Positions 12,331 through 35,409 of a stretch of 64,000 nucleotides of DNA are shown here, piece by piece. The DNA is taken from assembly GCA_951230915.1 (NCBI GenBank), contig OX579642.1, positions 5,394,001 to 5,458,000 of the forward strand, given 5' to 3'. This DNA comes from Antitrichia curtipendula. Its lineage: Eukaryota > Streptophyta > Bryopsida > Hypnales > Leucodontaceae. The notes below the pieces were generated by a model. It saw only the letters and a program-made list of their open reading frames with translations, had not been told where the DNA came from and did not search any database. Numbering within the stretch: the first letter of the stretch is position 1; each line of letters opens with the position of its first letter. A program made the position numbers and the translations under genes.

Positions 12331-13923
12331 TGAAGAATGGGTGATATACAAATTGTAATATCTATATCAACTATTAACACCAACAGTACAATTGTTCTCT
12401 TGGGGAACAAATTGAATTTGAATACATTCTTATGATCTCAAATTTTGGCATGCCATTTTTTACATTTTTTGTAGAAAATGTAGTTTTGTATTAAGTTTCC
12501 ATTGAATAAATTTTTATCAAATCCTACTCACAATTCAAAAGTTACAAGCAATTTTCAATGAAATGGTTCCACTAAGTAAAATTGGGCAAGTCAACTTTGG
12601 AGAGGCTAAAGAATAGGAAAACGAATCAATTGTGCAAAGGTAGCGAGTGGGCTTAGAGTCCTATATTGTACTTTTGGGATGAGATCCCAACATTGAGTTA
12701 GTATGTGGCATTGATTTGGATTTATGACATGAGGCGATGTGTAATTGCATTGACCATCTAATTGAAGGCCCATACCATTTGCCAAAATTGTCATTCAAGT
12801 CTAATTAAAGCCTATCACCATGGGCTAAAATTGCCATTGATATGAAAAGTGTGAGAAGTGGATTAGGAAGCAAGGATTGCAAAAAAGGATGGAGAATAAG
12901 ACTAGGTAAAGAATAGAAACAAGCTAGAAACGATTGCCACTCATTATTTGAAATTTTCAAGGTGGCCAAAAATACCATACTAAACTTCAAAAATAGGAAA
13001 TATCATAACCTCTTTTAATTGTTGTTATTCACTAGATATTGTGTATTTAGTAAAATAATATATTCTAGGATTGCAATGTCATCATCTTACACACCTAAAT
13101 GACCTATCCACTTTAATCACTTTCTCTATGATTGCACATTTCTTGTATATCTTGAGAATTTTTCCTATCTAGTATATATACAATTTGACATTGTCCACAT
13201 GCTAAATTTTTAACACCTGTACAAAAAACACTTTTTTCTATAGGCCAATGTCATGACATAAAATAGAATGTATATAAGCATTCTCAAATCTAGTTCGTGA
13301 ACATAAAGAAATTTATCAAAACCTCTAAAATCAAAAGAAATTATTGTGGCATGAAGAATTTTTTCTAAAATCAATTATTAGAGATTTTTTGATTTTGTAG
13401 TTATTAAAGTGTAAGTATTTCAGTTTCTAAAGATAAAAAAAGGCTGACATGATAGATGATTTGTGAGAAAAAAGTATTTACCTATTTTGTTTTTGTTTTC
13501 TTATAGACACTTTGGTATTGTAAATAGCTTTTGTATAATATTAAATACAACTTCTTTAATTTATTTAGAGTTTATATCCCACAATTTCAAGAGTGCATTT
13601 GAAATTGAAATAAAACTTTGTGTTACTCCAATGTTGGAGTTTGTGTTGTCTATGTTTCTAATTAATATTGACAAATTTACTTATAATATATGATGATTCC
13701 ACCAAATAATCAAATGTTCCTTTCTTCCTACTCTTATATTGATATGAATAAAATATGAGTAAAATATAACATATTGACTCTACAAAAATCAAATTTATCT
13801 TTATTGTTTTTTTCTATTGACATATGTAATACATGAATATATTTGTTTTTAAGAAAAATATTATATATCCTTGTAGTATCTTCTTCTTAAGGATCTCAAA
13901 GAAACGTGTTCTTCTCAAATGTG
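12331..13923. other. AT-rich stretch without recognised gene
   Basis: Only short, low-complexity ORFs occur. I see no exon chain or transposon termini until the inverted repeat at 13,924. Confidence 0.45.
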
Positions 13924-14088
13924 GCTAGTACGTGAGCCTGGAGCGGGGAGCAGGAAAAAAGAGAGCGGGGAGCAGGGATTGTTGTAAAAAATCCAAAAAT
14001 AAATAATTTTAATCCAAAATAGAATTTTTTCGTGATTTAAATTTTCAAAAATTTAAATTTAGTGAAATTGGGACCTATGACCGTGGGT
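13924..14088 (+). repeat. Left terminal inverted repeat of the giant element
   Basis: GCTAGTACGTGAGC at the tip, two copies of the GAGCGGGGAGCAGG block (13941 and 13963), an AT-rich spacer, then the conserved inner motif GACCTATGACCGTGGGT at 14072-14088. The spacer is longer than on the right (inner motif 148 bases from the tip, against 72). Confidence 0.7.
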
Positions 14089-14939
14089 TCAAAAGAGCCT
14101 ACTACCATCAAAAATTGAAGAAAGTACGTGTGAGAAAGAGGGAGAACTATTAATTAAGTTGGAAAAAGAGACAATACGACTATACGAGGAACAAAAAGAA
14201 AGACAAAGAATTTGAAAACTATGAAAAAAAATAATGGAAAAAACAAGAAGCTGGAGAAGGGGAGGAACAAAGACCGAGAGGGAGAGGAGGTGTCGGAGAG
14301 AGGAAGAACATAAACCAATAAAAAGGGCAAGGGAGAAGAAGAGTGAGAGTGAGGGAAAAATTAAAATATGGAAGATGAGAGAGGGAGAGGAAGAGTTTGA
14401 GAGACGGAGAGGGAGAGGAAGAGAGGGAGAAGTTGAGGGAGAAAGATGGAGAATAGAAAAACCCAATGAGTAAATAAAAGTGGATGAAAGAGAGGGCTAG
14501 AAGCAATATAGATTAAAAGGAGTTACAGATTCAAGTGTGCATTAGATGGACTTTAGCATCTTAGAAGCAACTTTTGAGAAAGTTGACACGTATCAAATTC
14601 CTAGGGCCATGTTCACTCCTGCCCAAACATGCATAATTCAATGTAGGCAATTTACATAATATTTTTCAACTTGAGCCTGGAGCTCACCTGCATTTAATGT
14701 ATTATGACAATAAGTATTTGAATAGCTAGAAATGTTCCAAAATTTGAATGGGTTCATCTAAATGGTCAATAAAAAGTACAACACAGGATTGGAATATGCA
14801 TACCATAATTCCTAATCACAGTTAGATTTAGTTACCAACATTTTCCACAGAACAATCAAATAGGGTTTACACATGATTTCCAAAAGCTGGTAGTGTCCCT
14901 TTTAGTCTCACTACCATTTTTGAATGAATTCCATAAGGA
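14089..14939. repeat. Polypurine tract and spacer 3' of the transposase
   Basis: Positions about 14,219-14,470 are almost pure purine on the plus strand (GAGAGGGAGAGGAAGAG-like repeats). This generates long Ser/Leu-rich ORFs on one strand and Arg/Glu-rich ORFs on the other, both artefacts of composition. The rest has no coding signal and may hold the transposase 3' untranslated region. Confidence 0.7.
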
Positions 14940-17900
14940 TTACATTTGGTGAATTTTTGGAATGCGATAAGCTAGGATACCGCTTTCTAGAATCTGCTTC
15001 ATTTCATTGAAGCTAAAAGTTGGTGCATGTATGAAAGCATCTCTCTCGGACTTTAGGCTACCTATAACAGTAAAAATAAAATAAAGATGCTTGCAACTTG
15101 CCCACCTCCCATGTCTGTCCAAACACTTTATTGCCATATCTTTGAGGTTCAGACAAGAGCATTCAGGGAAAGTGCCAATGGTGATCAAGTATTGTTGAAC
15201 TTTCGGTGGAGCTCCAGAATCAAGGGTGATAATACACCCATATCCTAGATGAGGAATCATCGTCATCTTACGTATTTGACCCTTCAAGGTGAGAGCGGAC
15301 GCACAGTTGTTGGCCTGTTGAATGTTGGGAGCATTGTTGTCCTTGCGGATGGACTTACCTGATCTGGTCTTAGGACAGTCATTTGCATTAGCTGGAGTGG
15401 GAAATGAAGCGAGGCTAAAGGGAAGCTCTACCGTCCTAAAGAGTCTCCTTGGAGAGATGACTGCGCGCTGTGGTAATTGGAAACCAGCACTCTCTAAATC
15501 AAGGATTTCCTTCTTAGAAAGGTTGGTCCCAATCTTCACTGGCCATATACTTGGGATGTACGGTCTCGACTGTACCCACTTTCGCTTTGTACCTTTGACA
15601 CAGCGTTTGACGTCATCGTTGCAGAAGAAGAACTCCATTGTCTTTGGCCTCTTTTTGTGAGCGTTTTGCATGACGCCAGTGTATGTGGGGGTTACAGTGG
15701 ATTTGTAGCACTGAACAATTTTGGCCTTGCACTTCTTCTTGGTGATAGCTTGCTGGGCAAAGCAAGCCTTTACTGAGGTCTTGTGCAGCCTTGCAATGTG
15801 CCACTCCGTCTCTTTACAAGCAGTTTTGTATACAACAGTCACATGACTAGTTCTCCCTATGTCGGTCGTCATGTCTTGGTTGTTGAGTGCTTCGTCCTCT
15901 TGCAGCTCGGGAGAGAGTTCTTCCATTACATCGGGAAGACTGCAGCTCGCATGGTTAGCTCGGCTTGACCTGGTTGCAATCCGTGGACGAGAGAAGTTTA
16001 CCTTATCCGGCTGGTGTGACTCGCCTTCAAAATTGAGAGGAACATCGGCTTTTTGCTTTTGAGAGCCAAAGACCTCTTCGCCAGCCAAATGAGGGTCACG
16101 AGTGCAAAAGAGCTCTATTCCTGGCAGTTTGGCCATAGCAACGTTTAGCACTTTGGGGTCCCCAGTTCGTTCGGCTGTGCGTTGGGCAGCGTGAAGCTGC
16201 AATTCTTCTTTTCCATGACCAGTGCCAACGTGGTCGTCCTTTAGATATTGATAATATTGGACAACCTGCATGAGTGCCCGGATGAAATCATCGACAATAG
16301 CAGTATACAAATCAGTTCCTCGATTGCCAAACTGCTGATTCCATTTGTGATGCATTGATTCGGCGAGATTACAAGAGGGCATCTCAGCAAGCTCCGATTC
16401 GGTGAGATCCTGCCCATGACCAAGACACAGACAAAAATCAAAGGGAAAAATGAAAAACCAGAATGCCACAAAGAGAAGACAGTGTCATATGCAAAGTGAC
16501 GAACAATAGCGAACTTACCAACTACATGAATCCACCCCATTGGCGATAGCGGAAGTGCCAAAATGCCAACCAGAGCTCCAGACGGCTCAATCCCTTCTCG
16601 GATGTGGCCCCCGAGGAGAGCCACCATGCACGAATGGCAAGGTATAGAGTTTCGGATTCTGAAGCTGAAGCTGCATTTTTGTACTGCCTACAGAGTTGAC
16701 GGTGCTGGTGTTGGAGGTTGGCACGGATATCAGCCTTCGTATGCTTTTCAAGGGATTGGGCCCAATGGAAGAGGCATGTCCTCTCTTGGTCCTTCATGGG
16801 AATCGTGGCATCACCACTACCGTAAATCACCCTAACATCATTCCAGTTTGCTTGCGCGCTGTCCGCCATGAAGCCCTTGAACTTCGGTGATGGAACACCG
16901 TGCCTTGCTATGACAGCATTCATGTTCTTCCAAAGTACCATCTGAGCAACAACATCCTCTGACTGCATATCACAGACCGCAATGGTCATGACTTGACAAT
17001 AAGCGGAGTTATACACATGGCAAGCCATAGTGGTCCAATGCTTGACCCTTTTGACGTGATCAAACATAATCCACAATTTCTCCAGATCTCCTCTAGGCTG
17101 CATTCGTTTGACCAAGTGAACCCCAGATCCGGGCCCCACCTCCGACATCTTGAAAATATATACCTTGTTTGAGTCGGAGCCTTGTCCCGGAAACTTGTTC
17201 TCCTGTATGTAGGCCCAATGGCTACAACCTCTGAGTGTGGCGATGCCGTCCATGACTCCAAATCTTCAAATGTACCTAAACGTAGTGACATCGTTCTTGA
17301 TGCTTGGGGAGCTTATGTACTTGCACTTCTCAAGAACAGGGACTAGCTCCTCCAGATCAAATTTTCGAACTAGCGCCCCTTCTGGATTAATGAGTAACAC
17401 ACCGACAAGCTCCTTACTAGCCTCCATGACAATTAGAGAGTTAGTGGCCTTGGGAGTCCTCTCGACCTGCTCCTCAATGAGCTGACGCATTTTCTCCTTG
17501 ATCTCCTGGTCTTCACCCACCTTTACAAGATGGTCATGAACTCCCAGATGCAGGCAAGCACGAGTCATGTTAGCATCTCCATAGACATAATAGACTCTAG
17601 CAGCACAAGTTGCAACACATGTTGGTGAAACTTTACAAATTTTGCAAACAAGTGTCGACCCAGCAAGTGCGGACTGGCCAGCCGGAATCGTCTTCACAAT
17701 GAATCCATCCCATTCCCTCTCATTGACCTTGGAGGTGCGATGAATGTGGGTAGTGTATTCACACTCTTGATTGTCACATCGGAGGTGGCCAATGCACGTA
17801 GAAGTGCGAAATGTCAAGCTGACATTACTCTTAATATTTGAAGTAATTGTTTTGGTCCAAGCATGACCATCATGACGGTTGTCCATTCCATGCATCATAT

Positions 17901-18635
17901 GGAATGGACCCGTCTTTAGTACTGGTGGTAATTCGAAAAGGACATCTCCACTAAATGTAGGAGGGAGGAACTTGACCCTCTGGATGTGAAGAGTGTCAAA
18001 ATCAAGTGTCTTGAAGACATTCCTAACTCCTTTAATAGCCCGAATCCTCTTCAAGGAATCAACAACACTAAGGCACTCATGAGTAAAGACGAGAGGTGAA
18101 AGATGACTCAACGGAGAAGGAGACTTCAAACATGACTCATGAAAAGTGCTATTGACCAATGGAGAAGTCACGGGAAGTGGTACTATTGGCAAGTTCCCGT
18201 CTGAATCTTCAATGAGAATTGTGATGAACTCATCAGCATGTTCTAACTTCACCCGTGTGGCCGAGGTGACCTAAACGGTGCTCGTGGACGATCGGTGGGG
18301 TGTGACAAACTCCGTGGAGGCGTGGATGCTTCCATGACTAACTGACTCACGCCGTATACTCGATATCTTCCAGCATTGAGCAACCATTTCTTGGTGGCTC
18401 CGTCACAAACTGGAGACTGGCCAATAGTATGAACTACATCTCCAGATTGTGCATCATAGACCTCTTCATCAATGAACATGATTTCCTCATTCATCTGGAA
18501 CCTGAGACTCAACCTCAAAGAGGTGACATGAGCTACTCCGTCATTGCCTAACGGAAAAGATATTGAAACCCTTTCACTACTAGAATAGATAACAGCGAAC
18601 CTAGGATTAGGGTCACAAGTAATATGAGCAGCCAT
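14940..18635 (-). pseudogene. Mutator-like (MULE) transposase, two in-frame stops
   Basis: Exons 18635-18351, 18270-16519 and 16409-14940 splice at GT-AG sites in phase 0, giving 1,168 codons before the TAA stop. Exon 2 starts with a Cys/His region (GHLRCDNQECEYTTHIH, later HLGVHDH) like the WRKY-GCM/FLYWCH-type zinc fingers of MULE transposases. It then enters the catalytic region with FKGFMADSAQANW and LFHWAQSLEKH. Exon 3 opens with SCNLAESMHHKW and ends with a SWIM-type zinc finger, CSC then CKH, near its C-terminus. DNA cut-and-paste transposition in the nucleus is the known role of the family. Two stops interrupt exon 2: TGA at 17268-17266 (natural reading CGA, Arg) and TAG at 16524-16522 (natural reading CAG, Gln). 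The rest is open, so inactivation is recent. A start at 18788 is possible but gives an unlikely hydrophobic extension. It is divergent from the ParB/methyltransferase gene. Confidence 0.8.
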
Positions 18636-19542
18636 GGTGAAACGAATGATTGAGAATGTGAATAGTGCTATGAGCATTTCCATGAAACCACAGAAATCAT
18701 GGAACGGCCAAACGTATGGGGTTGTGAAGCTGTCATAGTTTTCAAAAGAAAGACGTTTATGACTGTAAATTAAAGTAGGAATCGCCAAAATGAGGTTGTG
18801 TCAAACAGGAAGCTGAGTTCGGTAACACACAAGTAATGGAGAGATATTTAAGAATGTAGGTCCGTGATGTTCATTGCATGTTGCAATTGGTAAATGTGAG
18901 TAGGATCTATATACAGTAATTCATAAATGAAGGAAGTACCTATATCAATGGGGTAGCCTGCTTAGCATTTCAATATTGGGAAATATTATTTGTAGATCAA
19001 TGTTGCCGTTGAAATTCACATTTTCGTAGAAGTATATTATGATTTATGATTTAAACATTAGTATTAGGGCTAATACTATAACTTCTTCTATTAAAAGACT
19101 TCAGAGGACTTTACCACACTTAATATATTTTAGTTTATAGTGCCGATGTGTAATATGATTTACATTGTAGCTAATGCCCAAGAAGCTCAATAATAACATT
19201 AGATAAAGAACTCATAATCTTCTATGTTAATTAGTAGAAGTGGGTTTATTCGTACTTAGGTGAAGCACATACTTGCTATTCTCAAAAACAATAGAGTGTA
19301 GGTTTAAGGAAATTACAAAGCACCTAAAGCATTCAGGATTTATTGCAAGTATTTTGTCCATGACAGCGGGAGTTTAATTTTTCTATCAGTATTCTATCAA
19401 CATAATTAAAGCCATAATCACCATCCTTAAATTATCTGACATTTTTGGCGCAGCTGTCACCTTAGTAAACAATATATGATGGGCCTCTTAGGACACATCC
19501 TCATAATATTTGAGGCTAGGAGTTTACATTTTTCTAGGGCAA
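18636..19542. promoter_or_regulatory. Divergent intergenic region of the giant element
   Basis: About 900 bases of AT-rich sequence separate the transposase start (minus) from the first plus-strand reading frame. By position it should hold promoters for both genes. I see no unambiguous TATA box or repeated operator-like motif, so this is inference from layout only. Confidence 0.35.
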
Positions 19543-19858
19543 ATGAATGAATTAGATGAGGCTCTTGTGTCCAATGAGACCAGGAAGAGGAGGGACGGTC
19601 AGGATTTAGATATTCTAGCAGGAAAGTTTTGCAGCGATCAAGAGTGAAGAGGGAGTCATCTAAATTTGGAGAAATTCACTTGGAGTCGGTTACCAAGGTA
19701 TTATCATTTCCATGTGAGATTGGTGACACTGACCATCATGACTTTGCACCAGGATCGAGTCTTCAACCATGCCTTCATAGTATTGAGGAACATGATGGTG
19801 ACAGAGTAGTGCTAAGATGTGGAAATGTTATTTCTTCTGAGAGATGCAATATAAAGGT
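19543..19858 (+). pseudogene. Candidate first exon of the plus-strand gene, frameshifted
   Basis: An acceptor-like TTTTTCTAG precedes an ATG at 19543 that starts MNELDEALVSNETRKRRDG. The frame closes at about 19,646, while the next frame carries on as QRSRVKRESSKFGEIHLESV and stays open to a GT donor at 19859. One missing base near 19,625 would join them. The product is acidic/basic and soluble-looking with no recognised domain. It may be the 5' end of the ParB/methyltransferase gene or an unrelated exon. The linkage is unproven. Confidence 0.35.
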
Positions 19859-20595
19859 TAGTATCGTATCATTCTTGATGAATTGTAAACCGTAAGGGAT
19901 TAAGAAGTTGTTTATTATGAACAGAGGTTAGAGTCAACTTCTTCCATGTAAATGTCACCACTAAATTGTCTATGAACTGATCCTATATTATTTCTTGAAT
20001 CAACTCTACAGACTTGATTTTCTCCTTGTTCATATTAGTTCTTGAGAACGTCCATGTAATATTCATTATGAATTCATCAGATTAAGTCTGGATTTCAGGG
20101 TTTAGGGTCCATGATGTTTTCCGAAGCATGTGTGTGACAGATCCAAAGATGAATTCCTTCTTCGCACTTAGAGCTCTTCACTGGGTGTTTTGATATAGTA
20201 TATTCTGGATTGTGGCCTTATAATGTTCCGATAGTCCTTACTGAGTTACGAGGTACGATTGAATGTGCTTTCCCCGAGAAGCGACTAAAGAAAGTTCAGT
20301 GACAGTAAGCATTTGTCTAAGACTTCGAGGACTAGAAACTCTAATACATAAAACAAGGTCTACACTGAGAGAAGGAAAAGCAACCACCATAAACTAAATA
20401 TAACGAACCTTTAGGCCTAATTAGTATCTGTTAGTATTTAACTGGACGAATTTTTGGAAATTACGCAGTTAGTATCACCTGATTAGAGTGCACGTGGTTT
20501 ACCCTAAACCTCCGTTGACCAAATTGGAGAATGGGACTGCGCGAGTACCTAAGTATTCAGGTGATCATTGATTTTTGCCTCATATCTTCTAGCCT

Positions 20596-21006
20596 ATGAG
20601 CGACCCTTTTCCTCCTAACATCCAACCTGTGAGCAATTCTTTACCTTTTATCTTCCAGCCTGTGGGTGCGCGCTTTGAGACTACCCGGATTTTTTCAAGT
20701 GCGGGAGAGAGCGGGAGCGGCCGACTGAACTGCATTTCGGAGGCAGAAAGAAGCTCGCCAAGTCTGAGAGGGAGCGGGAGCGGCCGACTGGTTCAAATCG
20801 CGGAGGCACCCGACATTTCGTTGAGTGCGAGTGGGAGCGGGAGCGGCCGAGAGGATCTTGTTCCGGAGGCATCAAAAAGTTCGACGAGGGCAAGAGGGAG
20901 CGGGAGCGGCCGACAAGAGCTTGCTCCGGAGGCACCAAAAAGATTGACAAGGGCGGGAGGGAGCGGGAGCAGCCGACGGGATCATACTAAGGAAAATGTA
21001 AACTGA
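20596..21006 (+). CDS. ORF of GSGSGR repeats, unknown
   Basis: A 136-residue reading frame from ATG to TGA follows an acceptor-like CATATCTTCTAG. Residues about 38-130 are five copies of a 21-residue unit with core GSGSGR followed by an EA pair. Such low-complexity Gly/Ser/Arg repeats are typical of disordered regions. A donor-like GT (AAAAT then GTAAAC) lies just before the stop, so it could be an internal exon of the long plus-strand gene. Function unknown. Confidence 0.4.
   Translation: MSDPFPPNIQPVSNSLPFIFQPVGARFETTRIFSSAGESGSGRLNCISEAERSSPSLRGSGSGRLVQIAEAPDISLSASGSGSGREDLVPEASKSSTRARGSGSGRQELAPEAPKRLTRAGGSGSSRRDHTKENVN
20706..20980 (+). repeat. 63-bp tandem repeat, five copies
   Basis: The core GGGAGCGGGAGCGGCCGA recurs near 20,709, 20,771, 20,833, 20,896 and 20,959, a period of 62-63 bases that keeps one reading frame open (21 codons). 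The flanks of the core diverge between copies while the core is nearly invariant, which could reflect selection on the GSGSGR peptide or on a DNA site. Confidence 0.8.
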
Positions 21007-22768
21007 CTTAGAACTCGCCTATAGAGTCTGTTCAGTTATGATCTTCGCTTGATGTTTCTGGAGTTCGACGGGAACCCCACTGTCGTGCTTGTCTTCAGTA
21101 GAGCGAGCCTCTCGTCACGTCTTGGAGTTGCCCGGATTTAGCTTCGGCCCCAAGGACTACAGACATACGCCTCGGGCCGTTCTCAGAGGCAAAGGACTTT
21201 GAGCTGACCTAATGCCCATTAGTCCTTATCTCCCGCACTGTCTATTGGTTTTTGATTGATTCCTTGTACCCTAAACACATGAATGAGTAGCCGCGGAGGC
21301 ATCAGTATGTGTTCCGTAACAATGAGCCACGGGAATTGGACCTTAGGTAGTTGACAGTGAACCGCGAAGCATAAGACAGAACCCAGAAATGAGCTCGAGA
21401 AATAAAACCTGAACTAACAACTTCTGTCGCTGTAGACGTCCTCTGGCCCAGCCATAAGCCCATGACAGCCTCGCCGCCGAGGATTCATCTACGGCAGCTT
21501 CGGACATGACTTGCGGCACCACATTAAGACAGTCGTAGTTGCGAGGACGGCGAGACGGCGAGCCTATCTTCATCAATGTGAGAATGAATTTGAGCCGATA
21601 GCCATAGGGTTTTGGTCGGCTTGGGGTAGATGTGTCGAGGTTTGTTTGCGCTTGGAGTGAGTTGAGTTAGAAGGTAGGATTTGCGTTTTATCAATGTTCC
21701 GTGCGTATAGAAATTGGAAGACTTCCGAGCTTCTTCTCGTCTCTGGTGAACGCCAGCAAGTGGCCTCGGCGCCGAGCGATCCTCAAGATCTCCCCCGGAC
21801 GTTAGATGTTGCAAACCCAGTCCTGAGCAGAATCGCGATAATGTTCAGATATACCCTTCTGCTGATGACGTCCGCATGTCCTGCCGGAGTAGCCTCGCCG
21901 CCGAGGGACCTTCGCCTACTGTGCAAGATGCCATGTGTGGCAGTGACTTAGACTTCTGGATCAAATCACAAACGGCAAGAGCTCGTGACCGATTCATACT
22001 TATTACTTCGTCAGCCCCCGTCAGCCCTCATCAGTCGTCAATACATTGGCAGCCTTCATGAGCCACAGAGTACGGCGATCCGTCTTGACATTATCAGATT
22101 GGGGGAGATCAGGAAATAAGAATCTCATGGGTTGTAATTGGCGTCAAGGTCTTGTTTCTTGCCTCTGCTATCTTCCGGGGATCTGGCCAGGGCAGCCTCG
22201 GGGCCAAGGTGTCCCAGAGAATCTCCGGGAACGTCTTGCGCAGGTACTTGCACGACTCGTGATCGTGTAGTGTTCGCTCTAGGGTCACGTATTTTCCTTT
22301 TCCCGTGTTAGAGAACAGGTACGGTGGTATTTGGTGAATGATAGAATTGTCCTCACGGTCAATATTATCTCTTAGCGTACGCACTGAATTCGTCTTCAAC
22401 GTTCAATCTGGGGTCAGAAACTCAGAGAGTATATTTCTAACTCTTCTTCATGCATAGCCATTTGATTCTGCAGAGCCTTCATGAATATGCCCAGCCTCTT
22501 GATTTGGACCCCTAGCTAAGTATGGTTGTTTTTCTTAAATACTTTTGGATTTTTTGAGTCAGCCTGGATTTCTCTATGATGCATAGCCTTTGTGAGTATG
22601 CTCGGATTTCCTGATGATGCTCGATTTTATTGCTTTTCAAGGCCTTCGTGATTATGTCTTTATTTTTTGAATGTGCTCAGTGATCGTCATTTGCACTGAC
22701 TTAGTGATTTTATGTGCTTCATTATTTCAAAATACGGAAATGTAAATGTAGTTGAACTTATATTGTAG
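21007..22768. other. Mixed, locally GC-rich segment without resolved gene
   Basis: About 21,000-22,400 is richer in GC than its surroundings, with short ORFs on both strands that share no recognised motif. It could contain additional exons or introns of the long plus-strand gene, or a nested repeat. I could not decide. Confidence 0.3.
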
Positions 22769-23399
22769 GAACGAGTGGAGAAACGTGAAGACATTGCTAG
22801 CACTCTAGTCAGCCCTCGGTGGAATCAAGTAAGTGGCACACATAGAGCACAGGTATTAAATATAACACTCCTCCGTCCAAAGCTGAACTTACCTACTCAA
22901 ATGCTTAGTCCTTTTAAATTTCTAATACTGCTTCCCGTAATTGGTATAGGGTCTCTCCTTCGGTGATCTCGAGGCTCGAAATTTATCACCGTTGAAGGTG
23001 AGATTCTAGACATCTCATTCTCCAAATGCATGATTTTTTATAATATTTGAAGGTCTGTTGCTCGAGTATTCGCTTTCCTAATGTGCGTATATATTCTCGT
23101 GAATTTAGGAATGTACATATGAGAAGAAAGTTGTATGGTCCTTATATACAAGGTGCAAGTTAATGATAATCTAATTACTTGGATTTGTCGGGTAGATCAT
23201 GGTTCAAATAGGGGACACTCCGCTACATCCCGAGCTTTGTGGAGAGGGCACCTCCGAGCCACGGACAGCGATCGATGTCAGTGAGGATGAGGCAGAGGAG
23301 GCCCTGTTTAAGCTCAATGAAGACGAGTTGTGTAACCAGCAGAAGTCAAACAGCATCCATTGCATCGAAGCCATGAGGTTAGCGCCGAAGGAGGCCTCA

Positions 23400-23833
23400 A
23401 GGTTTGAGATACCGCTATGTCGGATGGTGTATATGCCATTAGTCCGCCCAACTCTTGCCCATGACATCAAGAGGTTGGAGGCAGAGTTTACCCATGGATA
23501 TAGGCCGGGAGCATCCGTGTTCTATGTATCCACAACCAACAAGAATGGGGAGGAGAGGCTTGTGAAGGATGTGGACACTAGTAACTGGAGACCTCAGTGG
23601 ACCTCAGTTAATGATGAATTCAAGGCCAATTTGTCCTTAGACCCTAATCTCATGTTTCTATGTGGTCGTATGTTCTTCATTTGTGATGGGAACCATTGTT
23701 TCAAGGCGTGGACAAAATACATTGACCGGCTTCATAGGAATGAACGGGAGTGGCATTACTCCGTGGATAGCATTTGCCTCGATACGAAGGGCAAGGTGGC
23801 CCTCCTAATGAACGCCATGCACGACATCAATAA
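23400..23833 (+). other. ParB/sulfiredoxin-like segment
   Basis: The stretch runs from a Pro-rich MVYMPLVRPTLAHDIKRLE start to a strand-turn with DGNHCFKAW (DGNHC at 23685-23699) and a following basic helix. ParB-type and related nuclease/NTPase domains have a G-N/E-H-R box at this place. Here Arg is replaced by Cys (TGT, one C-to-T change from CGT). Assignment is by pattern, not by alignment. Confidence 0.45.
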
Positions 23834-26261
23834 GTAAGATTTCTTACTACATTTTTTTGGATTTTCTATTTTTTTCTACAAGTGCTTGTTTCTTACTATC
23901 ATTTTGTATCTTCAGGTCCAATGAGCACTCCCATGTGAAGACGAGCATGGTGCACACACTATACCGTGTGAAGTCTGTCGGGTGCATGCCACTCGAGAGC
24001 CTCAAGTCTTGGCTCACTGAGGAGGAATACAGGAGGTGTGTAAACAGCCCCGACATCGAGAAGACATGGTATCATCTGACAACCGATGTCTTTGTTGCGT
24101 TCCTCTTCAGGGTAATAATCCTACTGACTCATTGTGTTAGTCAAATTTCTATATTTCATAACATTTCTTAATCATCCATGCTAATGCTACTCACTCATTT
24201 TCAATTGCAGCAAGAGATTGGAGAGGCCTCTGATGATGCGGCAAGAAGGTATTATGATGAGACACCTAAGGAGGTCAGGACCGACGCCGGCGTTACTACG
24301 GCCATGAGGGCTGCAGCAAGGATCAAGCATCAATCGTTCAAGGGCCAATTCTTCAAGTATCTTTCGATTGCCAACCCGAAGTTCGGTGACAAATTCCTTG
24401 AAGAGGTTGGTTTTTCTCTTTAGACTCCTTTGCGGGACCTTCTTGTTAATTGATTGTAATGTATTAACATCCCTGTGAGTGTTTTAATCTCCCCCCTTCA
24501 GAGGTAAAACGTGCAAACGGATTCTAGCGGCATGAAAAGTAATTTCTAAGGGATGAAATCAAACGTAGTGTTCTTTGGCCTTCCAAGCAATGGACACTTT
24601 TTGTATTTATTTTGATATAGTCTAAGTAATTTGAAACATGCTAATGGTTAAAGAATTAAAACTTCTATGGTTAATTGAATGCAATCAAATTTCTATCTAA
24701 ACCAGAATCTATTCTAAGTTACTAATCTAATTTTAGGGATTTCTGAATTCTAACTAGCTATTTGGGTTTCTAATTGTTAATTTTGATTTTAAAAATCTAA
24801 TCTAAAGAGTGAAGAGAGAAGTCAAATGAATTTTGAAAATCATACCTCGGTATCTGTGGGTGCAAGATTATGGGCCCTTGGTAATCGGGCGAACACCGAC
24901 CAGGTTCTATGCCTTTATCCACCTTTTAAATATATGGGGGTGTTGTAAGCGCGGTCCACTGTGCCTTCCAAGCAATGGATCTTTTTGTGCTAACGTTTTC
25001 TAAGTGTCGTGGATGGCAGCGAATACTACTAGAAATGCATGGGTGGCTAACAAGCTGACTGCAATGATCAAAGGTGATAGAAAATTCTAACTTTTAAGTT
25101 TTAACTAACTACCCTCTGTCTGGGGTTGGTTGGATAGTTGGCGTCATTTCTAACGTCCTTAACTACGTGAAAGGGGAGCCCCCGCGTTCCTTCTACGAAC
25201 CTCTAAGACTACTTTGCTTGGAAGTTCCAATTCTACAAGCCAATCCTGAGCTTGGTTTTTACTCAAATCTCTAACCTCTAAATGTAACTATGGATTTTTA
25301 CTCTTGGATTTGACTCCTAAATTAATCCTAGATTTTTACTCCTAAACTAACTCTAGCTTTTTATTCCTAAATTTTACTTCACCTACCACGGATTACTATT
25401 CACGGAAAGAGGGTTTAAGGTTAAGGGAAGAATCAAAAATTAACTGGGAACACACACCCAAGATTAAATAAAAAACTCACACCTTCGCTGCCGGTATCGG
25501 AGAGAAGTTCGTCCCCGTTCGTATGCACATTCTTGTGCTCCATGGTGGTCCTTGATTTCGGTTGAATTTCTTCGAGCTCACCCCTTATTTTTGGGGAAAA
25601 TTATGACCCCGTGCGATCTAGACCTTTCTCCTTCCCTTCCTCCTTCTTTCTCCTTCCCTTCTTCCTCTTTTTCTTTCCCTTCTTCTTCTTTCTTCCCTAA
25701 CACTATTCTACCTAAGTCTTTAAGAATGTCTTACAACTATAGACTCTAACTTCGAGGAGGGTTAATGTCCCTCCTACCCTCTTACACGACCTTGCTTTTG
25801 TGTCATTCTAATCCGCCTTCTAATGGTCGCTTGCAAATTCTTGAGATTTCCTCCCCTAAGTCTACTTACAGTACTTAGCCACGCCTAGGTCACTATTTAT
25901 CGTCTCTCCCACCTCCTATCGTATTTCATCCTACTTCCCTCTAATCCTCTTCCATTCTCGTTGGGTTCAATTTGGTGTAGAGAGAGATGGTCCGTGAATA
26001 TTGTGTGCAGGTTTTTTTAAGGCAAATCAACGTATGACTCCCTTTCTCCCCCTTTCCTTTTTTTTCCTCTCTCTCTTGGTATTTTGCGTTAGATTCTTTG
26101 TTTTGTCTAAGTCAAGCCTTGATCCTTAGTTTCTAGATTTTTAAACCAACCTTCTAAACACAAAAAAATGATGGAGAGACCCCGATTCCCCAAAGACCCC
26201 GACTCCCCAAACTTCCTGGACTCCCTGGACCTCCGGGACTCTGCGACTAGTGACTCCCCGA

Positions 26262-26475
26262 CCTGCGACCTGGCTGACCCCCGACTTGTGACCTGGCTGA
26301 CCCCCTCTTGCAACCTGGCTGACTCGCTCAAGCTGAACTTACTGGATTGTAACTTGCTCAGCTAAATTTAACTGGACTGACTTGCTCAAGCTAAACTTAA
26401 CTGGACTGTAACTTAATCAAGTTGAACTTAACTGGACTGTAACTTAATCAAGCTGAACCTAACGGGACTCTATAA
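26262..26475. repeat. Degenerate tandem repeats of about 20 and 35 bp
   Basis: A GACCTGGCTGACCCC-type unit (three copies from about 26,265) passes into four to five copies of a CTGAACTTAACTGGACTGTAA-type unit up to about 26,475. Copies diverge gradually, as in an expanding and decaying minisatellite. Confidence 0.7.
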
Positions 26476-28084
26476 CTGATTTTAAGCTAAAACTCAACTG
26501 GCCCCAACCCACTTTTAACAGAACTAAGGGGGGGGGGTGGTTGGGTTTTTTTTTCTCTCTTTTCTTCTCCAAATTAGAGTCCTGGGTTTGGGGTGTGGAA
26601 ATAACTAGGGGGAGTATTCCGCTGGTTGAGGGGGACTCTAAGGTTCTCACTACGGCTCTTGTCCTTAATATTTTTTGGATGCTAAACTTTGGTATTTTCC
26701 AAACACGTTTTGGAAACTAAACTTTGGAGTTGGGAATAGGAGGAGCTCAAAGCTTTATGGTCTTGGTGGCTTTAACACCAATTCTAGGACTTCCTAAGGA
26801 CCCTAGGTTCAAAGCTCCCTTGTTGATTACTATTTTAACACACGATCTAGGACTCCTCGATACTGACAGGTTCAAAGCTTCGCCGTCTCTTAGGGGTCCC
26901 ACACTCCCACTCCCACACACAATCTAGGACTTCTGACACTGACAAGTTCAAACACAAATCTAGACCAAATACTATAATGGGTATGTTACAATCCTATTTT
27001 GGTTCTACACTCTTTTTATGGCTTTTTATATATTTTTCTTAACTTTAAATTGCAAATTTCCAAAAAAATAATTCTACAAGTCCCAAGTAACAAATTGGAA
27101 GCTTACAGTATCGAAGACATCAACAGTTACGTCGTCGCAATACACAAACATGATTGTCTCCTCGTAGTTCTCCATTGCCTTTCATGAGTCACATCATTTA
27201 GTTAAATTTGAGTCAATTGTTGTTGAGTTGTAGTTCTAAATCCTATTTAAAAGTCAAGTTTTGTTAGTTTTGGCAATTGAAAATAATCCTTTGGTTTTAG
27301 AAATTTAAATTAAATGATAAATTTAATTCAATTTTCCTAAGTTTTCAATGAATAGTAGGTTTATTCGATTGCCAATTGTTTAATAGTTATTTTATTAAAT
27401 ATTCCAAGATATTAGTTGTTGTTTGTTTGTATCTATTTGGCTTATTAGGCCTAATAAGACAAAATCCCAACAACAAAACAACCAACTAATTTGTCTTTGG
27501 AATCCTAATTAATAATTAAAACCAACCGTATGAATAGTAACCTAATAGAATAAGCTAAAATAATCAAAACAAATCTATCGATGAATAGTAAAAGGAATTT
27601 TGCAATCCAAATAATCGAACTTCAATAGTAAGATGCTAACGAAAAGAATAGAATAATCAAAACAATCCAAAATTCAATAGTAAGATACTAACCTTTTATT
27701 CTTCGTCTCTCCTCGCTAATCTTCTTATGATCTCTCCTTTCTTCTCCTCCTTATTTTGTTGTTGTTGTTTGACAAGCTATGGTGTTAGAGGGAATTGTGA
27801 ATTTGATGAGAATTCTTGGTGTTCAATTTCTTCCCATAAACTCAAAATTTTGGTGTGCGTGGTGAGCAACGGCCTTGGCTTATGAAATTTTGAGTTGTGA
27901 ATGAATGATTTTGGAGATAATTTGGACTTTGCAGACTCCTGGACTTCCCTTTCTTTCCAACCGGACCTCTGTGACCACCCCTTGCAAACTTCCTGGACTC
28001 AACGAACTGCTGCGACCTCCCGAACTCCCACTGCGTCGACACGTGGCCCCGTGATTGGGCAATCCCACCCCCACCCCCCGGTTA

Positions 28085-28312
28085 CCACCTGCTCCCCGTC
28101 GTCTTGGTCCTCCCGTCTTCTGATCTCCGTCATTCCGATCGGCTCACCACCTGCTCCCCGTCGTCTTGGTCCTCCCGTCTTCTGATCTCCGTCATTCCGA
28201 TCGGCTCACCACCTGCTCCCCGTCGTCTTGGTCCTCCCGTCTTCTGATCTCCGTCATTCCAATCGGCTCACCACCTGCTCCCCGTCGTCTTGGTCTTCTC
28301 GTCTTCTGGGCT
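28085..28312. repeat. 62-bp tandem repeat, nearly four identical copies
   Basis: CCACCTGCTCCCCGTCG recurs at 28085, 28147, 28209 and 28271, exactly 62 bases apart, with about one mismatch between the first three copies. Related but shuffled CGTCTTCTGGTC pieces continue to about 28,400. The near identity indicates recent expansion compared with the decayed repeats around it. Confidence 0.85.
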
Positions 28313-28754
28313 TCTCGCTTCTGATCTCCGTCGTCTGGTCCTCGTCTTCTGATCTCTGTCGTCTCTGGTTCTCGTCTTCTGGTCTTCTCGGCTTCTGGCC
28401 TTGTTGCTTCTATGAACTGGATTTCTGTTTTTTGGCTAAAGACTAAATTTCTGGCTTTAAGGACTCAAGCAATTTTGGGAAAAAATACCACTAGAATAGG
28501 ACTAAGAAATAAAGGAAGTTAATTCTCATGCGTTGCAAAAGAATAAGGAAGAAACAAGATAAATTAATTGGTTGTGAGATTTAAAGATAAGCGAAATCTA
28601 GCGAATTCAATGGAAACGAAACAACAAGTATCCAATGTTGAAGCAAAAGACCTCCACCACGTATACCAACCGGAAGAGAATTAAATCAATGGTTTTGGAC
28701 TTTAAATAAGTTCTAAAAGAATCTTATTCCAGAAATTCTTAATTTGGCAAGTCA

Positions 28755-29025
28755 AAGCTCCGTCGTGCAAGGACAACCCCAGGATTTAACGGTCTCTTTA
28801 AAGGTAAAATTAAAAAGACAAAGCTTCGCCGTGCGGGAACAATCCCAGGTTTAAACGGAGCTTCTAGAACAAGTTTAAGTACTTTGAAAGTTAGATGCTA
28901 AAGGAGGTACACATGACAGTGTTTAACCGAACATTAGAATAAAATCTTCTAAAATTTCAAATAAAGTTAATCAATTAACTGCTAAAGGAGGTACACATGA
29001 AAGTGTTTAACCGAACATTAGCAAT
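28755..29025. repeat. Two pairs of short direct repeats
   Basis: An AAGCTCCGTCGTGCAAGGAC-like block at 28755 recurs in variant form at 28821. A block starting GCTAAAGGAGGTACACATGA at 28897 recurs at 28981 (about 40 bases, one mismatch in the first part). The spacings are 66 and 84 bases. No coding signal is seen. Confidence 0.65.
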
Positions 29026-32000
29026 TAAACCTCAAATTCCGTTATACAACAAACTTTGAGTAGGAAATTAGTCTAAAACACTTTTGGCAAAGTCAAGCCT
29101 CGCCGCTTTAAGTATTTTAGTACCAAATGCGTTCACGTGCTACAATGGATTAGTATTCAAGTAATCTTAAGCAAAGAATCAAAGTTTTGGGGCTTACAAC
29201 CTCCAAATTCAAAAAAAAAGCAATATGTTTTGAAGGGACCCTCTAGTCCTTCAAAACACAAGGGAAATAGCGAGAAATGCAAAGAAATAGAAGGGAATAG
29301 CCAATTTTTGGCTTAAAAGTGCTCCAACAACGTGTTGGTAGCACAACAGAGCAACAACAAGGAAATGAAAATGAAGACTAGTCTGACAACGTGTCAGTAT
29401 CAAGAAAAATGAGGATGAGGGTTACCGACAACCTTGAGGGGAGGCCTTTTATACTCGAGCCAAGCCCTCCCCGGTAAGTTGTCGGTTAAAAAACGTTTAA
29501 CTAACTACCTAATTAAATTCTAAACTACTACGAGATATTTTGCATTTAATCTTTGTTTAATGGGAAGGAAGGTTCTCAAGCAAGTTCCTTGGAGGTTCTA
29601 ATTAGCCTTGGAATCTTGCCTAAATCAAATCCTTGATTTTCCCCAAAGATTTTATGAAAATAACCCTAACTAACCTAGATATTTTGCAATTTAATCCTAG
29701 GTCAATTCCAAATATTCTTAGTTTAATCTAAATTGGCTTTTAAAGGAAAGATTTGACATCTTAACTAAATCCAATCTTCAATTTTCACCAAGATATTTTG
29801 TTAATTAACCTCGAATTACTGCTAATTACTCTAAAAAAATCAAACTAAGAGCTGGCCCTGTCTATCTTTTAGGAAAAAACTCCAAATTGAAAACTGATTG
29901 TGCCATCGCGTTTAGAAGACCCCAATTAGTCGAAGGGACCCCTAAACCCCTCCTTCCAAGCTGTAAATATTCGTAAAAACCACTAACAGTAATTCTAGAG
30001 AAAAGTCAAAATCCCAACTAATGGAATTTGAGTTTCCCGAGAAAACTAACTGGATAGGGTTGCTTGGAAGGTTTGTGAGAGTAAGAAAACATTCCTTGTT
30101 TGCGACATTCGGACACCGCTAGCTCCTGGCTCGCCGGTCAACCCACCGTCGTGTTGTAAATTCTTGTTAAATTTGATGTTGTTGCCGATTCGAGTACTTT
30201 TGACTATCAAAAAGTCTTCAAACTTGACATGTCGCTTATCTAATACATAAAACTCTAATCTAATTTTTAGTGAGATTTTACCGCACTCTGGATAATTTCT
30301 AGGAAATTACCATCAGTTTCAAAGGCGGTTGACTTCCCATGGAGTCATCGTGGAGTTTTGTAAAATCCCGAAACTTTTGGGCAATCTTTTGGGAAGTGTT
30401 CAAAGGCCAAAGGCAAAACCAAACCTCCAATAAGGATGCTAAGTTTAGCAATTCCTTAATAATTTCCGCCCGGGGGAAAATTATTCTAGTACCGGGGTTG
30501 TTGTGGATGATTAGCTCCGCTGTTGATCTTGGCATGCTTTTACCCTAAAATCACCTTTCTATAAGCTCCAATCACCTCGCCCTTCTTCTACTTTGCATTC
30601 TGATTCATTTCCTTCAACATTTATAGGTCTTCATGTAACTAGTCCATATTCTATATGAATTGGATCGAGATACTTCTAAACCTTGATATAGACTCTTGCA
30701 CTTTAGCCAGGATGTCACATGTACTCACATGTCAAGAGTTACATGGACAAGACACTAGGACTGGCTAACTCTCACATCTTCACATTTCTCTTAACACGTT
30801 AATATGGACTCTAAGACACTGAACTAAGACATAAACATAGAAAAGCAGAGTATTTTGTGCTTTCCATGAATTTAGGAAGGTTCCTCACTAATCTAGTAGG
30901 GACTTCTACCAAACTCCTCTCAACTACTAATTCATGCTATTTTGCATGAATTAACACCAAAAAATAACAGTAAATTGTAAAAAATAAATCCAGAGCTTCA
31001 AGTGCTAACTTGAGGGCTCACAATCCTCTATACTTGTTGCAGATCACGAAGCACTAGAGCAATAATGAGAAGCCAGAGATGTCTCTAGAGAAGCTTTAGC
31101 TCATTGCAACGACTTGTGCAGGTCCGGAGTTCAAAGTTAGGTGGCTTCAGAATTGGAATTCAAGCATCCACTCCCGTGAGGCATTGCACTTCCCTCCTAG
31201 GGGATTCACTGAAAAGGACTTCGAAGGTTGGCTAAACAAGGCCTCATTTTGGACAGGGGTGAGTAATCAAGATCTATAGTGATCAAATACTTGAATTCAT
31301 TATCAACTGTGATATTTGTTGACTCTATAAATTTAGAGTTAGTGTTTGTTGTACTCTTCATTTACTTCATTTCATATTTATATATGGCAGTGATGAAGTT
31401 GACATTATTCACCTAAACCCTGGCCATTGAGCTTTTCAATGTGTTTCATTTTTTTCATCTCCTACAGCTTGAGGACGATGCTGTTGATCTATTCTCGAAG
31501 AGCGTCAAGGACGATGGCTTGGCGATAAACATGGATGTCGCTCAGAAGCCAAGGTCCATCTCTCAGTACATCCAAGCTTGGCATAATCAGATTTGGGAAC
31601 ATGGATTTGTTGGCTTCTTTAAGGGCAAGGAGTCCTACACAAAGACGAAGGCATTCGTGCACCAGAAGCAAACAGACCTTGCTGTGAAGCGAGCCGTGTA
31701 TAGGTATGAACTCAATTCATAATTGGTTTATGTTTTTAGCATTTCATTGATATAGATGATTGTAGCATAATAATTTATTCTTTGTCTTCCTTCATTAGGT
31801 ACTTCAAGAGGGAGCTCCTCCCACTTGGTGCAATTGAAGAGCCCCGCCTTCCCCAATACTTGACCGCATGGACAGACAAGAAATCCGTTCTTTGCATGTA
31901 CAATGCTTGGCATACTTGCTTTTGGTCCATTGCACATCTCAGGGCATGTTGCTGGTACATTGAATGCGGGAAGTCCTTCTGCCAGTTGAAGAAGAGGACG

Positions 32001-32666
32001 CAAAGAAGGCTTCTGATGAAGCTGACAATGTTGCTCCCGACCAAGGTGATGTGCAAGAGGTGGACATCTCTACGCTTCCCGAGAAGGAGAGGAACAAGAT
32101 TCTCAACCAGAGGACCAGGGATGCGGAAAAGGCCAAGGCTAAGGCTGATAGGGAGGCCCAGAAGGTCAGGGACAAGGCAGAAAGGGATGCACAAAGGAAT
32201 GCACCAAGGGATGCCAAGAAAATTGGGCGATCAGGGAAGTCAAAGGCAGGTGATGCTTCTACTCCAGCACTTGTGTTCCCAGAGGCTTCCACTGGATCCA
32301 TGTCACAGAACCCTCGCAAGTGGGATTCCTCCTTTGTTGAGCTCTCAGCTTCAAGATTGCAGCAGTGTACATCACCTGCCTTCCAGGATTGCTTGGGGGG
32401 ACTTTGCATTTGGATGAGCTTTTCTTCTCATCATCTCTAGATGCCGTTGTATCTTATTATAAGCAGCACAATGCCTTCCCAAAGGAATGGATGGAATTGC
32501 AAGCCTTTCTTGAGAAGGTATTCCTCATCTCTTATTTTCCATTGCTTTATGATGTCATTGTGGTAGTATTGAAGTGAGTGTCATTCTAAATTTTCTTTGT
32601 CATGTGCAGCACAAATCTGACAAGGCGCAAGCCTTGAGAGGTGTTCAAGCCGCTGCCGGCCTTCTC

Positions 32667-33630
32667 GATCTTATGGTGGTGGACATTCCTGAAGGTCTTC
32701 CGATTCCAACGGTGACCTCTCATGGCTCATCCATTCCGGAGTGGAACAAGCTTCCAGATCGATTTGTGGAGACGGTTTTCGAGAGTGCTTGTGAATTGGT
32801 TCACGACAACGGGGTGCTCTACTGTTTCATCCACATGATCTTCAGATGAGGACTGATATTCGAGGCTGCCTGAGGCCTTACCACTTCTCACTCTTCAAGG
32901 AATTCATGGGAGTTAATCGCTTACCTCTGACTAGTGCCAGGACCGCTTCAAAGACTGTGAGTGAATCATGCATTTTCAATTTATTCTTGTCATTGGCACT
33001 TCACCCATTAACCTCTCTTTTACTAATTCCATATGTTGTTTCATTTATTTGTAGACTTTGAGATTCTGCATTCAACTTTTTGTGAGGAGCTTCCCCGGGG
33101 TACCAGCCTCCACCTTCTCCATTACGCCTGTGCCAGAGCTCGTATCTATCGGTATCAACGTCGCTGCTGATGATGTCCTCTTCAACTTGGTGACAAAGGA
33201 CACACAGCTGATGAGAGGCACTACTCCTTGGAGAGGAGGTAGGAAAAAGGACCCTATACTTCTTCAGACGCTGATTGAGTCTACCACGCAGTTTGGTGAC
33301 ATAGTGCTTGATTGCACTGCGTCCACTGGTAAGAGCTTCCTGCTGAATCTCTTTATCAAGGTGTTATGATTTCTTGTTCATTCACATTTCTTTACTTATT
33401 CTTGGATTTAATACAGGAGCTTTTGTCCACGCTTGTCGAAAGGTTGGTCGGCATTTCGTGGTCATGGAGGTGGATCAGCTGATCTTCAAGGCCATTCTGG
33501 AGCCCCTCGTCGTGGTCTCTGTCCCTGAGATCTCCAAGAAGCAACGTCTTGATGCTGGAGAGGCCTCTGAGGTCTTAGTGGATGAAGAGATTGCAAAGTC
33601 GACCATTGTTGCATGCCATAGATTCTGTAA
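32667..33630 (+). other. Beta-class amino-methyltransferase-like core
   Basis: A motif IV-like segment (DLMVVDIPEG, 32667-32696) precedes a recognition-like region. X (RKKDPILLQTLIES) and the SAM-binding motif I (GDIVLDCTASTG, 33295 onwards, split by an intron inside the Gly codon) follow, with the acidic residue of motif II in FVVMEVD. This circular order is that of beta-class enzymes. The usual DPPY/F catalytic tetrapeptide is DIPE here, and the FxGxG loop is CTASTG, so catalysis is doubtful while SAM-like binding is possible. Confidence 0.55.
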
Positions 33631-34379
33631 GTAAGTTTTTATCATGCTTTGAATATGGAGCTTTAAGTAAGTTTGTATTGCTACGCATTTATTTTACTCT
33701 TTCCTATACTAATCCCTTCATTGACTTCTTGTATGTTCAGCTCAAGCTTGAGGAGTCCAACTCCTACTTTCGCCTTGCAATCAGGATTGCTTCATAGCCC
33801 TGAGAAGTCTTTTTCCCTACCTGTCTATGCTAATGCAATGGCACGTGCTTCTCTCAAAAGTGGACCCACTTTTGCACCTCAACCTAGACTTGGAGTAGAT
33901 CGCAGGGTCCTAAAGTATCTTGACATAGATGTTGCTGTTGATACTTTGTTTCCATCAGATTGTTCAGATTCAGAATCCAGTTGTAGATCTGGTGATATCT
34001 ATGGAGACTGTAGTAGTGATAGTATGTCTTCTTAGACTTTTTGCAGTTCCACTGCCTACAAGATTGCTACCTTTTGTATTTCCATTCATGTTTTGCAATG
34101 AGACTAAAAGGGCCACTGCCTTTGATTTCTATGGTCTTGTCTTTGTTATAAAGACTACACATTTTCTTGACTGCAATTCTTCTGCTACATTTATTTGTTT
34201 TATACCGCGTTACCCTAAACCATTGCGTGGCCAGAACTTGTGGAATAGCATGTCATTTCTTATATTACTAAGTAATGTTGCTGGCATAAATTTATCCTTT
34301 TCTTATCACAGTTTATGTGGACCTCCTCTACAAAAATTGGTATTTTCTTCCGCTTTAGTGTTCTAGATCGTCATTCCTC

Positions 34380-34504
34380 ATCCACGGTTGTAGGTTCACT
34401 TTCCTACTACTCCCCTTCAGAACCTATTTTCATTACCACGGTAATAGATGCTACCTCCAATATTTTGTAGAAGTGCATACAATTATTACCCACGGTCATA
34501 GGTC
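34380..34504 (+). repeat. Subterminal repeats at the right end of the giant element
   Basis: Three related blocks, CCACGGTTGTAGGTT, CCACGGTAATAGATG and CCCACGGTCATAGGTC, lie at about 34,382, 34,436 and 34,490, spaced 54 bases. The last is the inner inverted-repeat motif that also occurs at 14,072. Repeated subterminal motifs are often transposase-binding sites. Confidence 0.55.
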
Positions 34505-34576
34505 TGCCTCTTTAGGTTTGTCAAAATTTCAAAACAATTAAAAGATGAAATCCCTGCTCCCCGCTCATGTACTAGC
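34488..34576 (-). repeat. Right terminal inverted repeat of the giant element
   Basis: Read on the minus strand, it begins GCTAGTACATGAGCGGGGAG, continues with CAGGGATTT, and contains GACCTATGACCGTGGGT 72 bases from the tip. The match to the left end is described under the whole element. Confidence 0.7.
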
Positions 34577-35409
34577 TTTTCCCCATTGTCCATCACCATA
34601 CAATTCTTACACATCTTGACAATTTTATTGGACATTGTCTATATTTTATGTTATTAACACTTGTACAAAAAGTGCACGCCTCTTTTGGTGTCAAATGTCA
34701 TGGTAGATAGTGGAACACTCATGGGTGCAAGAAATATGTTGGTTGAAAAGAATAGAAGAATTTGTCAATAAGTTTTAGTGTCACTCTAAAGTGTCATATA
34801 GAAAATGATGTAGGAACTTGAATGAATCAACTTTTATCATGTGTTGATTTATTGACAAATGGCAAAACCACAATTGACTAAAAACAAAATCATAGGATAA
34901 TTGACTACATTGCATTTAAACTACAATCTACTAAAACAAAAGGTGAAGGACGGTCTGAGAATTGTTGAGGGAGAGAAGAAGGTGCCAAATTTAACTTACT
35001 ATCTAATCTACCTATATAAAAAATTGAGCTTACATTGCCAATAGACAATCAACCTCATAAGCATAATGTTCTTGCCTACTTGCTCTTTGCCTTCTCTTCC
35101 AAGAACTGGAACTATAAAAATTTGAAACTATATATTTTTGAAGTTAAGAGATGTCAATCATGCACTAATACTAATGGAAATTGAGGGGATCTTTGCAATT
35201 TGAACTCTGTAATTTCATACAGATTTCACTCGACCAAGTAATTTGTATCATTACAATGTAACAAGTGTAACAATCATGAAATTAAACATTATGAATACAA
35301 GAGTAATGCGTACTTGTGATTCAAATTCTCTTGTCTACCGCACTAATATGTCTAATCTAAAAGTGTACAACTCATTATAATGATGACTTTCCATTTATTT
35401 ATTTTTGTA
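34577..35409. other. AT-rich stretch without recognised gene
   Basis: No exon chain, RNA gene or clear transposon terminus is visible in these 830 bases. Confidence 0.45.

Follow-up and report, generated by a model that had tools for sequence, protein, structure and literature searches.

A repeated two-gene Mutator/IS256-like transposon of a plant genome with a ParB-methyltransferase-like gene

What kind of genetic unit is it, in which a transposase gene and a gene that joins a ParB-like domain to an amino-methyltransferase-like domain lie back to back between two inverted repeats? The question is raised by a 64,000-nucleotide stretch of contig OX579642.1 (assembly GCA_951230915.1, positions 5,394,001 to 5,458,000), further called the window, where a sequence-only reading had described a 20.65-kb Mutator-like transposon with a cargo undescribed in plant DNA transposons. 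Our comparison with the rest of the host genome shows that this is a repeated two-gene plant DNA transposon, probably of a moss, in which related terminal repeats enclose about 14.0 kb and 10-bp target duplications flank most retrieved copies, and whose transposase and ParB-methyltransferase-like gene are divergent and end each near one terminus. The copy in the window is an old, disabled member of the family that has been enlarged by a nested insertion. Taken as a whole, the best explanation is a two-gene transposon whose ParB-methyltransferase acts on the element itself, both genes being under selection, and we give it a probability of about 0.6.

The host genome (400 Mb in 303 contigs) was searched for copies with P0001, a transposase relative. 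Out of 1803 candidates 62 matches were scored, 39 of them at 77-83% identity and 23 at 58-60%. Ten further transposase places were retrieved, 20 kb each. In eight of these the transposase is accompanied by ParB exon 1, by exon 4 and by both methyltransferase pieces, all ordered and oriented as in the window; the other two have the transposase only within 20 kb, with the nearest listed ParB partners 21-22 kb off. Related terminal repeats were found at both ends of all eight two-ended copies, as well as in the window. Seven of these copies are 13,876-14,054 bp long and one is 17,617 bp, so that the family length without a nested insertion is about 14.0 kb, and the window copy, of 20,667 bp, is longer because of the insertion at 24474-31022; the previously proposed 20.65 kb was inflated as an element size. 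Target duplications agree in 10 of 10 bases in five copies, in 9 of 9 in one, and in 9 of 10 and 8 of 10 in the remaining two. The expectation of the sequence-only reading, that copies with the same termini, both genes and target duplications would occur elsewhere in the genome, was therefore borne out, the duplications being mostly of 10 bp.

The association of the two genes is not confined to the retrieved places. A divergent ParB exon lies within 30 kb of 37 of the 39 close transposases (the window copy included), at a spacing of 3,359-5,653 bp in 32 cases and of 19-25 kb in five, while random placement in 1000 trials gave a mean of 0.074 partnered transposases and a maximum of 2. In the reciprocal direction, a scored transposase stands divergent to 37 of the 44 close ParB places, and the prospect that the methyltransferase-like gene would always be met apart from the transposase and terminal repeats did not materialise. 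The ParB exon was scored at 150 places of 1266 candidates in the host genome, and therefore the population carrying it is larger than the subfamily of the window.

The ends of the element were set at 13917 and 34583 (no strand assigned) because other genomic copies, the eight two-ended ones, share both ends, which also settles the pairing of the terminal repeats as one family rather than unrelated dispersed repeats; the pairing proposed earlier stands, and the true ends are 7 bp further out on each side. The left terminal repeat, delimited by motif searches and by the end comparison (13917-14088, plus strand), reads AAATGTGGCTAGTACGTGAGC in the window and begins with GGR or GAGTGTGG in other copies, its inner motif ACCTATGACCGTGGGT being at 14073-14088. 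The right one (34488-34583, minus strand) begins, read inward, with GGGAAAAGCTAGTACRTGAGC and has the inner motif at 34488-34503. The shared tips and the perfect 17-bp inner repeat noticed previously are real: the window contains perfect inverted repeats of 18 bp (13963-13980 and 34549-34566) and of 17 bp (14072-14088 and 34488-34504), the outer stretch being GCTAGTACGTGAGC against GCTAGTACATGAGC. At up to 3 mismatches the 18-bp motif occurs at three places of the window, the two arms and a partial duplicate at 13941, and at none in 100 shuffles. Collinear with these main pairs is a weaker subterminal pair, with arms at 14889-14926 (plus strand, just beyond the transposase stop codon) and 34083-34120 (minus strand, just beyond the stop codon of the second gene), 76% complementary over 38 bp and 91% over a 22-bp core; a variant of the inner motif with three mismatches is at 34380-34395. 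This subterminal pair and the inner motif are candidate binding sites. In the host genome the inner motif has 323 matches at up to 1 mismatch, compared to 2 for the reversed control, and among its 49 exact places 15 lie at the 3' end of a listed transposase, 6 on the 3' side of a close ParB gene and 2 on that of a distant one.

The transposase gene occupies 14940-18635 on the minus strand (exon 1, 18635-16519; intron, 16518-16410; exon 2, 16409-14940), its product is 85% identical to P0001, and the window copy is broken by internal stops and one frameshift. An additional intron in exon 1 near 18276-18350 was rejected, and the lesion is a frameshift, because P0001 reads through that stretch; reading of TAG as glutamine was rejected too, relatives carrying different residues at the premature TAG stops. 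The predicted fold is that of a DDE transposase with a Mutator/IS256-type RNase H domain, and the best match is the IS256-family ISCth4, with which the protein shares an RNase H core with a helical insertion; Hermes, P-element and integrase matched lower, to the RNase H core. ISCth4 is a bacterial insertion sequence that is not known to carry a ParB-methyltransferase cargo. A SWIM-type C-x-C...C-x-H is present near the C-terminus in the window and in the relative P0005, as a motif with no Pfam match, and such zinc fingers are known in many, not all, groups of Mutator-like elements (MULEs) (PMC6446971). Target duplications of the superfamily are 8-11 bp long (PMC6446971), and family copies combine duplications of this length with terminal inverted repeats. 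Among 58 transposase relatives scanned against Pfam, most of them without exon 2 and with filters that remove most matches above E 0.1, Transposase_mut (PF00872) was found in two, at a best E of 0.034. The earlier designation as a MULE transposase finds support in the predicted fold, in the SWIM-type motif and in the length of the duplications, though not in the Pfam MULE model.

The second gene, or gene 2, homologous to the Ceratodon protein P0059, runs on the plus strand from 23199 to 34035 in ten exons (23199-23833, 23916-24111, 24211-24405, 31043-31258, 31468-31703, 31799-32517, 32610-32956, 33055-33328, 33417-33630 and 33741-34035). Two divergent genes, each ending near a terminus, had been correctly recognised, and both are present in the window, although both are broken there; in one retrieved copy the exon map of gene 2 gives a 1114-residue frame without internal stops, and in two further copies one internal stop each. 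The N-terminal domain (23199-24111, plus strand), of the ParB/sulfiredoxin-like kind, has a predicted ParB fold with a DGNH motif at 23685, and Pfam ParB had no matches among the 47 members scanned. A database search returned 409 related protein clusters; of the 120 listed, 89 have DGNHR and 101 have DGNH, a candidate nucleotide-binding signature of the kind tied to CTP gating, the window reading DGNHC. The named relatives among the listed matches, P0059 and one among the 120 of 409, belong to the moss Ceratodon purpureus. Together with the PDDEXK_6 domain in a neighbouring open frame of the window, this makes a moss the likely host. One relative, P0164, is annotated with a UG locus tag of Ceratodon; its record is 112 Mb long and by its name is presumably the U sex chromosome.

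The amino-methyltransferase-like domain (32610-33630, plus strand) was placed by alignment and by a PF01555 match of P0059 (E 4.9e-7; 30.4 bits against a curated cut-off of 26.7) in a scan of that relative; weak matches of CcrM/DpnA type were also obtained. The catalytic motif of amino-methyltransferases is (D/N/S)PP(Y/F/W), the aromatic residue of this motif IV being important for base flipping. The window family departs from it, with D-I-P-E at 32682-32693. At the S-adenosylmethionine (SAM) motif position the window has CTASTG (from 33313), while diverged copies have CTAATG and CTAGTG. The sole relative among the genome contigs searched, on CADCWO010000058.1 (further L004), a contig binned as cyanobacterium, is a spliced gene 2 with open frames, D-V-P-E in motif IV and ITASTG at the SAM motif, and its exon with most of the methyltransferase part, scanned alone at E<=0.1, did not match PF01555; because of the plant-like spliced exons, L004 is probably moss contamination of the cyanobacterial bin. 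No relatives of either protein were found in viral contigs, three of which matched the terminal repeat motif, and phages gave no match to the ParB part and two short matches to the methylase part.

Of three transposases at 58-60% identity, examined over 10 kb on the gene 2 side and for two of them also at the left end, two are accompanied by gene 2 pieces 36-47% alike to the close family, in the same order. One of these diverged copies, C1, is about 14.1 kb long, has terminal inverted repeats starting with GGTGCTAGTATGTGAGCGG and is bounded by a direct repeat of 11 bp or more. Further diverged pairs were found for 2 of the 23 transposases when 64 ParB places were compared, and among 29 ParB places of 46-52% identity, some of them chosen by eye, there are 8 with an inward-facing inner motif 4.2-8.3 kb off on their 3' side. 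Because diverged transposases and ParB places also pair with gene 2 or with the terminal motif, the partnership probably predates these lineage splits.

A number of observations weigh against the explanation given at the outset. No target duplication was detected at the window copy in a search for 8-11 bp, where 4 of 10 bases are alike. Two of the 39 close transposases have no ParB gene, and 7 of the 44 close ParB places have no partner among the scored transposases, which may reflect pairing with unscored or lost ones. Perfect inverted pairs of at least 14 bp number 43 in the window, a second one of 18 bp and further ones of 17 bp included. When the two 500-bp arms are aligned with gaps the score is 38, which falls within the range of 1956 random pairs (median 22, top five 54-103); the repeat arms alone are not decisive and are insufficient as proof of one element. 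Of the 49 exact motif places 26 fell at no listed gene end, one of the three diverged copies has no gene 2 in the 10 kb examined, and no pair of terminal repeats was found for another, C4, that has it. The Pfam MULE model PF10551 was unmatched in the window pieces and in the 58 relatives (25 of the 26 matched families being listed). Compared among the three youngest copies, both genes have a ratio of nonsynonymous to synonymous substitution rates (dN/dS) of 0.42-0.56, a weak signal of constraint from few changes. Finally, motif IV is D-V-P-E or D-V-S-E in two diverged copies and D-T-P-F only in P0059, and since the DPPY-like motif reads D-I-P-E, D-V-P-E or D-V-S-E, methylation activity of gene 2 appears doubtful.

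We propose that the transposase would bind the terminal and subterminal repeats and move the element by DDE chemistry, as family knowledge suggests, while the ParB-fold domain of gene 2 would load on DNA of the element itself, the probable sites being repeats within its ends or close to them. The methyltransferase-fold domain may then mark or occupy this DNA, and this could protect the element from host silencing or prepare its ends for transposition. In this proposal long-term spread would need both proteins, and for that reason both genes would be under selection and diversify together. We favour gene 2 as a putative element-bound clamp that marks or shields element DNA; an anti-silencing role is a speculation.

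How would such a clamp work? One possible version, which we put forward tentatively, is that the methyltransferase fold is catalytically dead and, together with the ParB clamp, serves as a sequence-specific DNA-binding cofactor of anti-silencing or transposition, comparable in its action to VANC (VANDAL) or MURB (MuDR) but not related to them. The altered motif IV, with a glutamate that L004 and two diverged copies share with the window family, is consistent with it, as are purifying selection and the repeated terminal and subterminal motifs as possible binding sites, whereas the SAM-motif region is largely kept, which suggests that cofactor binding is retained. An active, ParB-targeted enzyme that sets N6-methyladenine (6mA) or N4-methylcytosine (4mC) as a self-mark against silencing is on the unlikely side: it has the domain architecture proposed for Ectocarpus Sola1-1_Ec32 (PMC12477816) in its favour. 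The PF01555 match of the Ceratodon relative, the weak CcrM/DpnA-type matches and a dN/dS of 0.21-0.35 in the methyltransferase domain point the same way; the missing aromatic residue in motif IV of the window family and the two diverged copies speaks against it. Rather doubtful for us is the most extended picture, a land-plant transposon lineage that would have kept, as its own epigenetic module, a ParB clamp of bacterial style joined to a reshaped (D-x-P-E) amino-methyltransferase. Gated by a nucleotide, the clamp would load at the terminal repeats, spread along the element and label it or shield it from cytosine-methylation silencing, and in algae and plants transposase superfamilies that are unrelated to each other would have taken up the same module. 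That the transposase belongs to a superfamily other than Mutator, for instance Sola1 or a new one, is improbable: the unmatched Pfam MULE model and the Sola1 precedent for such a cargo in Ectocarpus (PMC12477816) would favour it, and Sola1 was weighed and disfavoured. The least probable, and disfavoured, is a passenger gene, host or foreign, captured once and merely copied without a life-cycle role as in Pack-MULEs, for while MULEs are prone to picking up fragments of host genes (PMC6446971), gene 2 is a whole multi-exon gene whose five segments all have a dN/dS well below 1 (0.09-0.42), it stands beside some transposases only 58-60% alike, and it has 409 related protein clusters.

Is the cargo new? 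A ParB-methyltransferase cargo of transposons is already in print, from algae. Ectocarpus Sola1-1_Ec32 is likewise a large DNA transposon encoding a protein of about 1100 residues with ParB-like and N4C/N6A-type methyltransferase domains, on the strand opposite to the transposase; it differs in having a Sola1 transposase and a brown algal host, whereas the window family is Mutator/IS256-like, has 10-bp duplications and belongs to a probable land plant (PMC12477816). Transposons of green and red algae are cited there as having similar ParB-methyltransferase accessory proteins (Iyer 2011; Petroll 2025, for Bostrychia; both as cited in PMC12477816). These differ from the window family by their algal hosts, and for red algae the citing article speaks of giant EnSpm elements that carry several accessory genes. 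Our literature search, limited to top-ranked full-text matches with most subscription journals outside it, returned no ParB-methyltransferase transposon from a land plant or a Mutator/IS256-like element, so that, within the reach of this search, the claim of a cargo undescribed in plant DNA transposons would hold for land plants, while the type itself is known. VANDAL and MuDR are similarly Mutator-like with a transposase and an accessory gene, VANC or MURB. To our knowledge neither of the latter is a ParB or a methyltransferase protein. VANC counters silencing of its own VANDAL element (PMC10398659). Fungal DNA transposons with TET/JBP genes and SET-carrying Harbinger and MuDR elements of Phytophthora also carry an epigenetic enzyme gene, for a 5-methylcytosine dioxygenase or a histone methyltransferase, in other hosts (PMC12730594). 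DNA methyltransferase domains are carried as well by DIRS retrotransposons with a Dam-like methylase and by DNMT-carrying retrotransposons, which are retroelements with Dam-like or cytosine enzymes and no ParB domain mentioned in the parts cited; purifying selection was reported for a methyltransferase-carrying case in Klebsormidium (PMC5890265). With our data a little-described class of transposon accessory proteins reaches beyond algae, into a probable land plant and a Mutator/IS256-like element, on evidence from copy number, linkage, target duplications and selection. Should the module indeed mark or shield its own DNA, mosses would offer a plant system for a transposon with its own epigenetic machinery and for any role of 6mA or 4mC.

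The nested insertion (24474-31022, about 6.5 kb, no strand assigned) lies in the gene 2 intron that separates exons 3 and 4, has termini TGTGAG...CTCACA and is missing from the retrieved copies e1 and e6. Two of its pieces, 24855-25303 and 25431-25908, recur past the end of copy e6, and it is therefore considered to hold dispersed repeats; a 62-bp tandem repeat is found within it at 28022-28326. Between the two genes, at 20593-21006 on the plus strand, a 63-bp tandem repeat forms a 137-codon, GSGSGR-rich open frame with no Pfam match, which is aligned in copy e1 and partly in e6. Outside the element, a probable host gene is located at 48535-50508 on the minus strand, with a possible further exon in the frame 49897-50508, which has no Pfam match, and with a PDDEXK_6 domain, typical of plants, in the frame 48535-49215 (E 1.6e-34).

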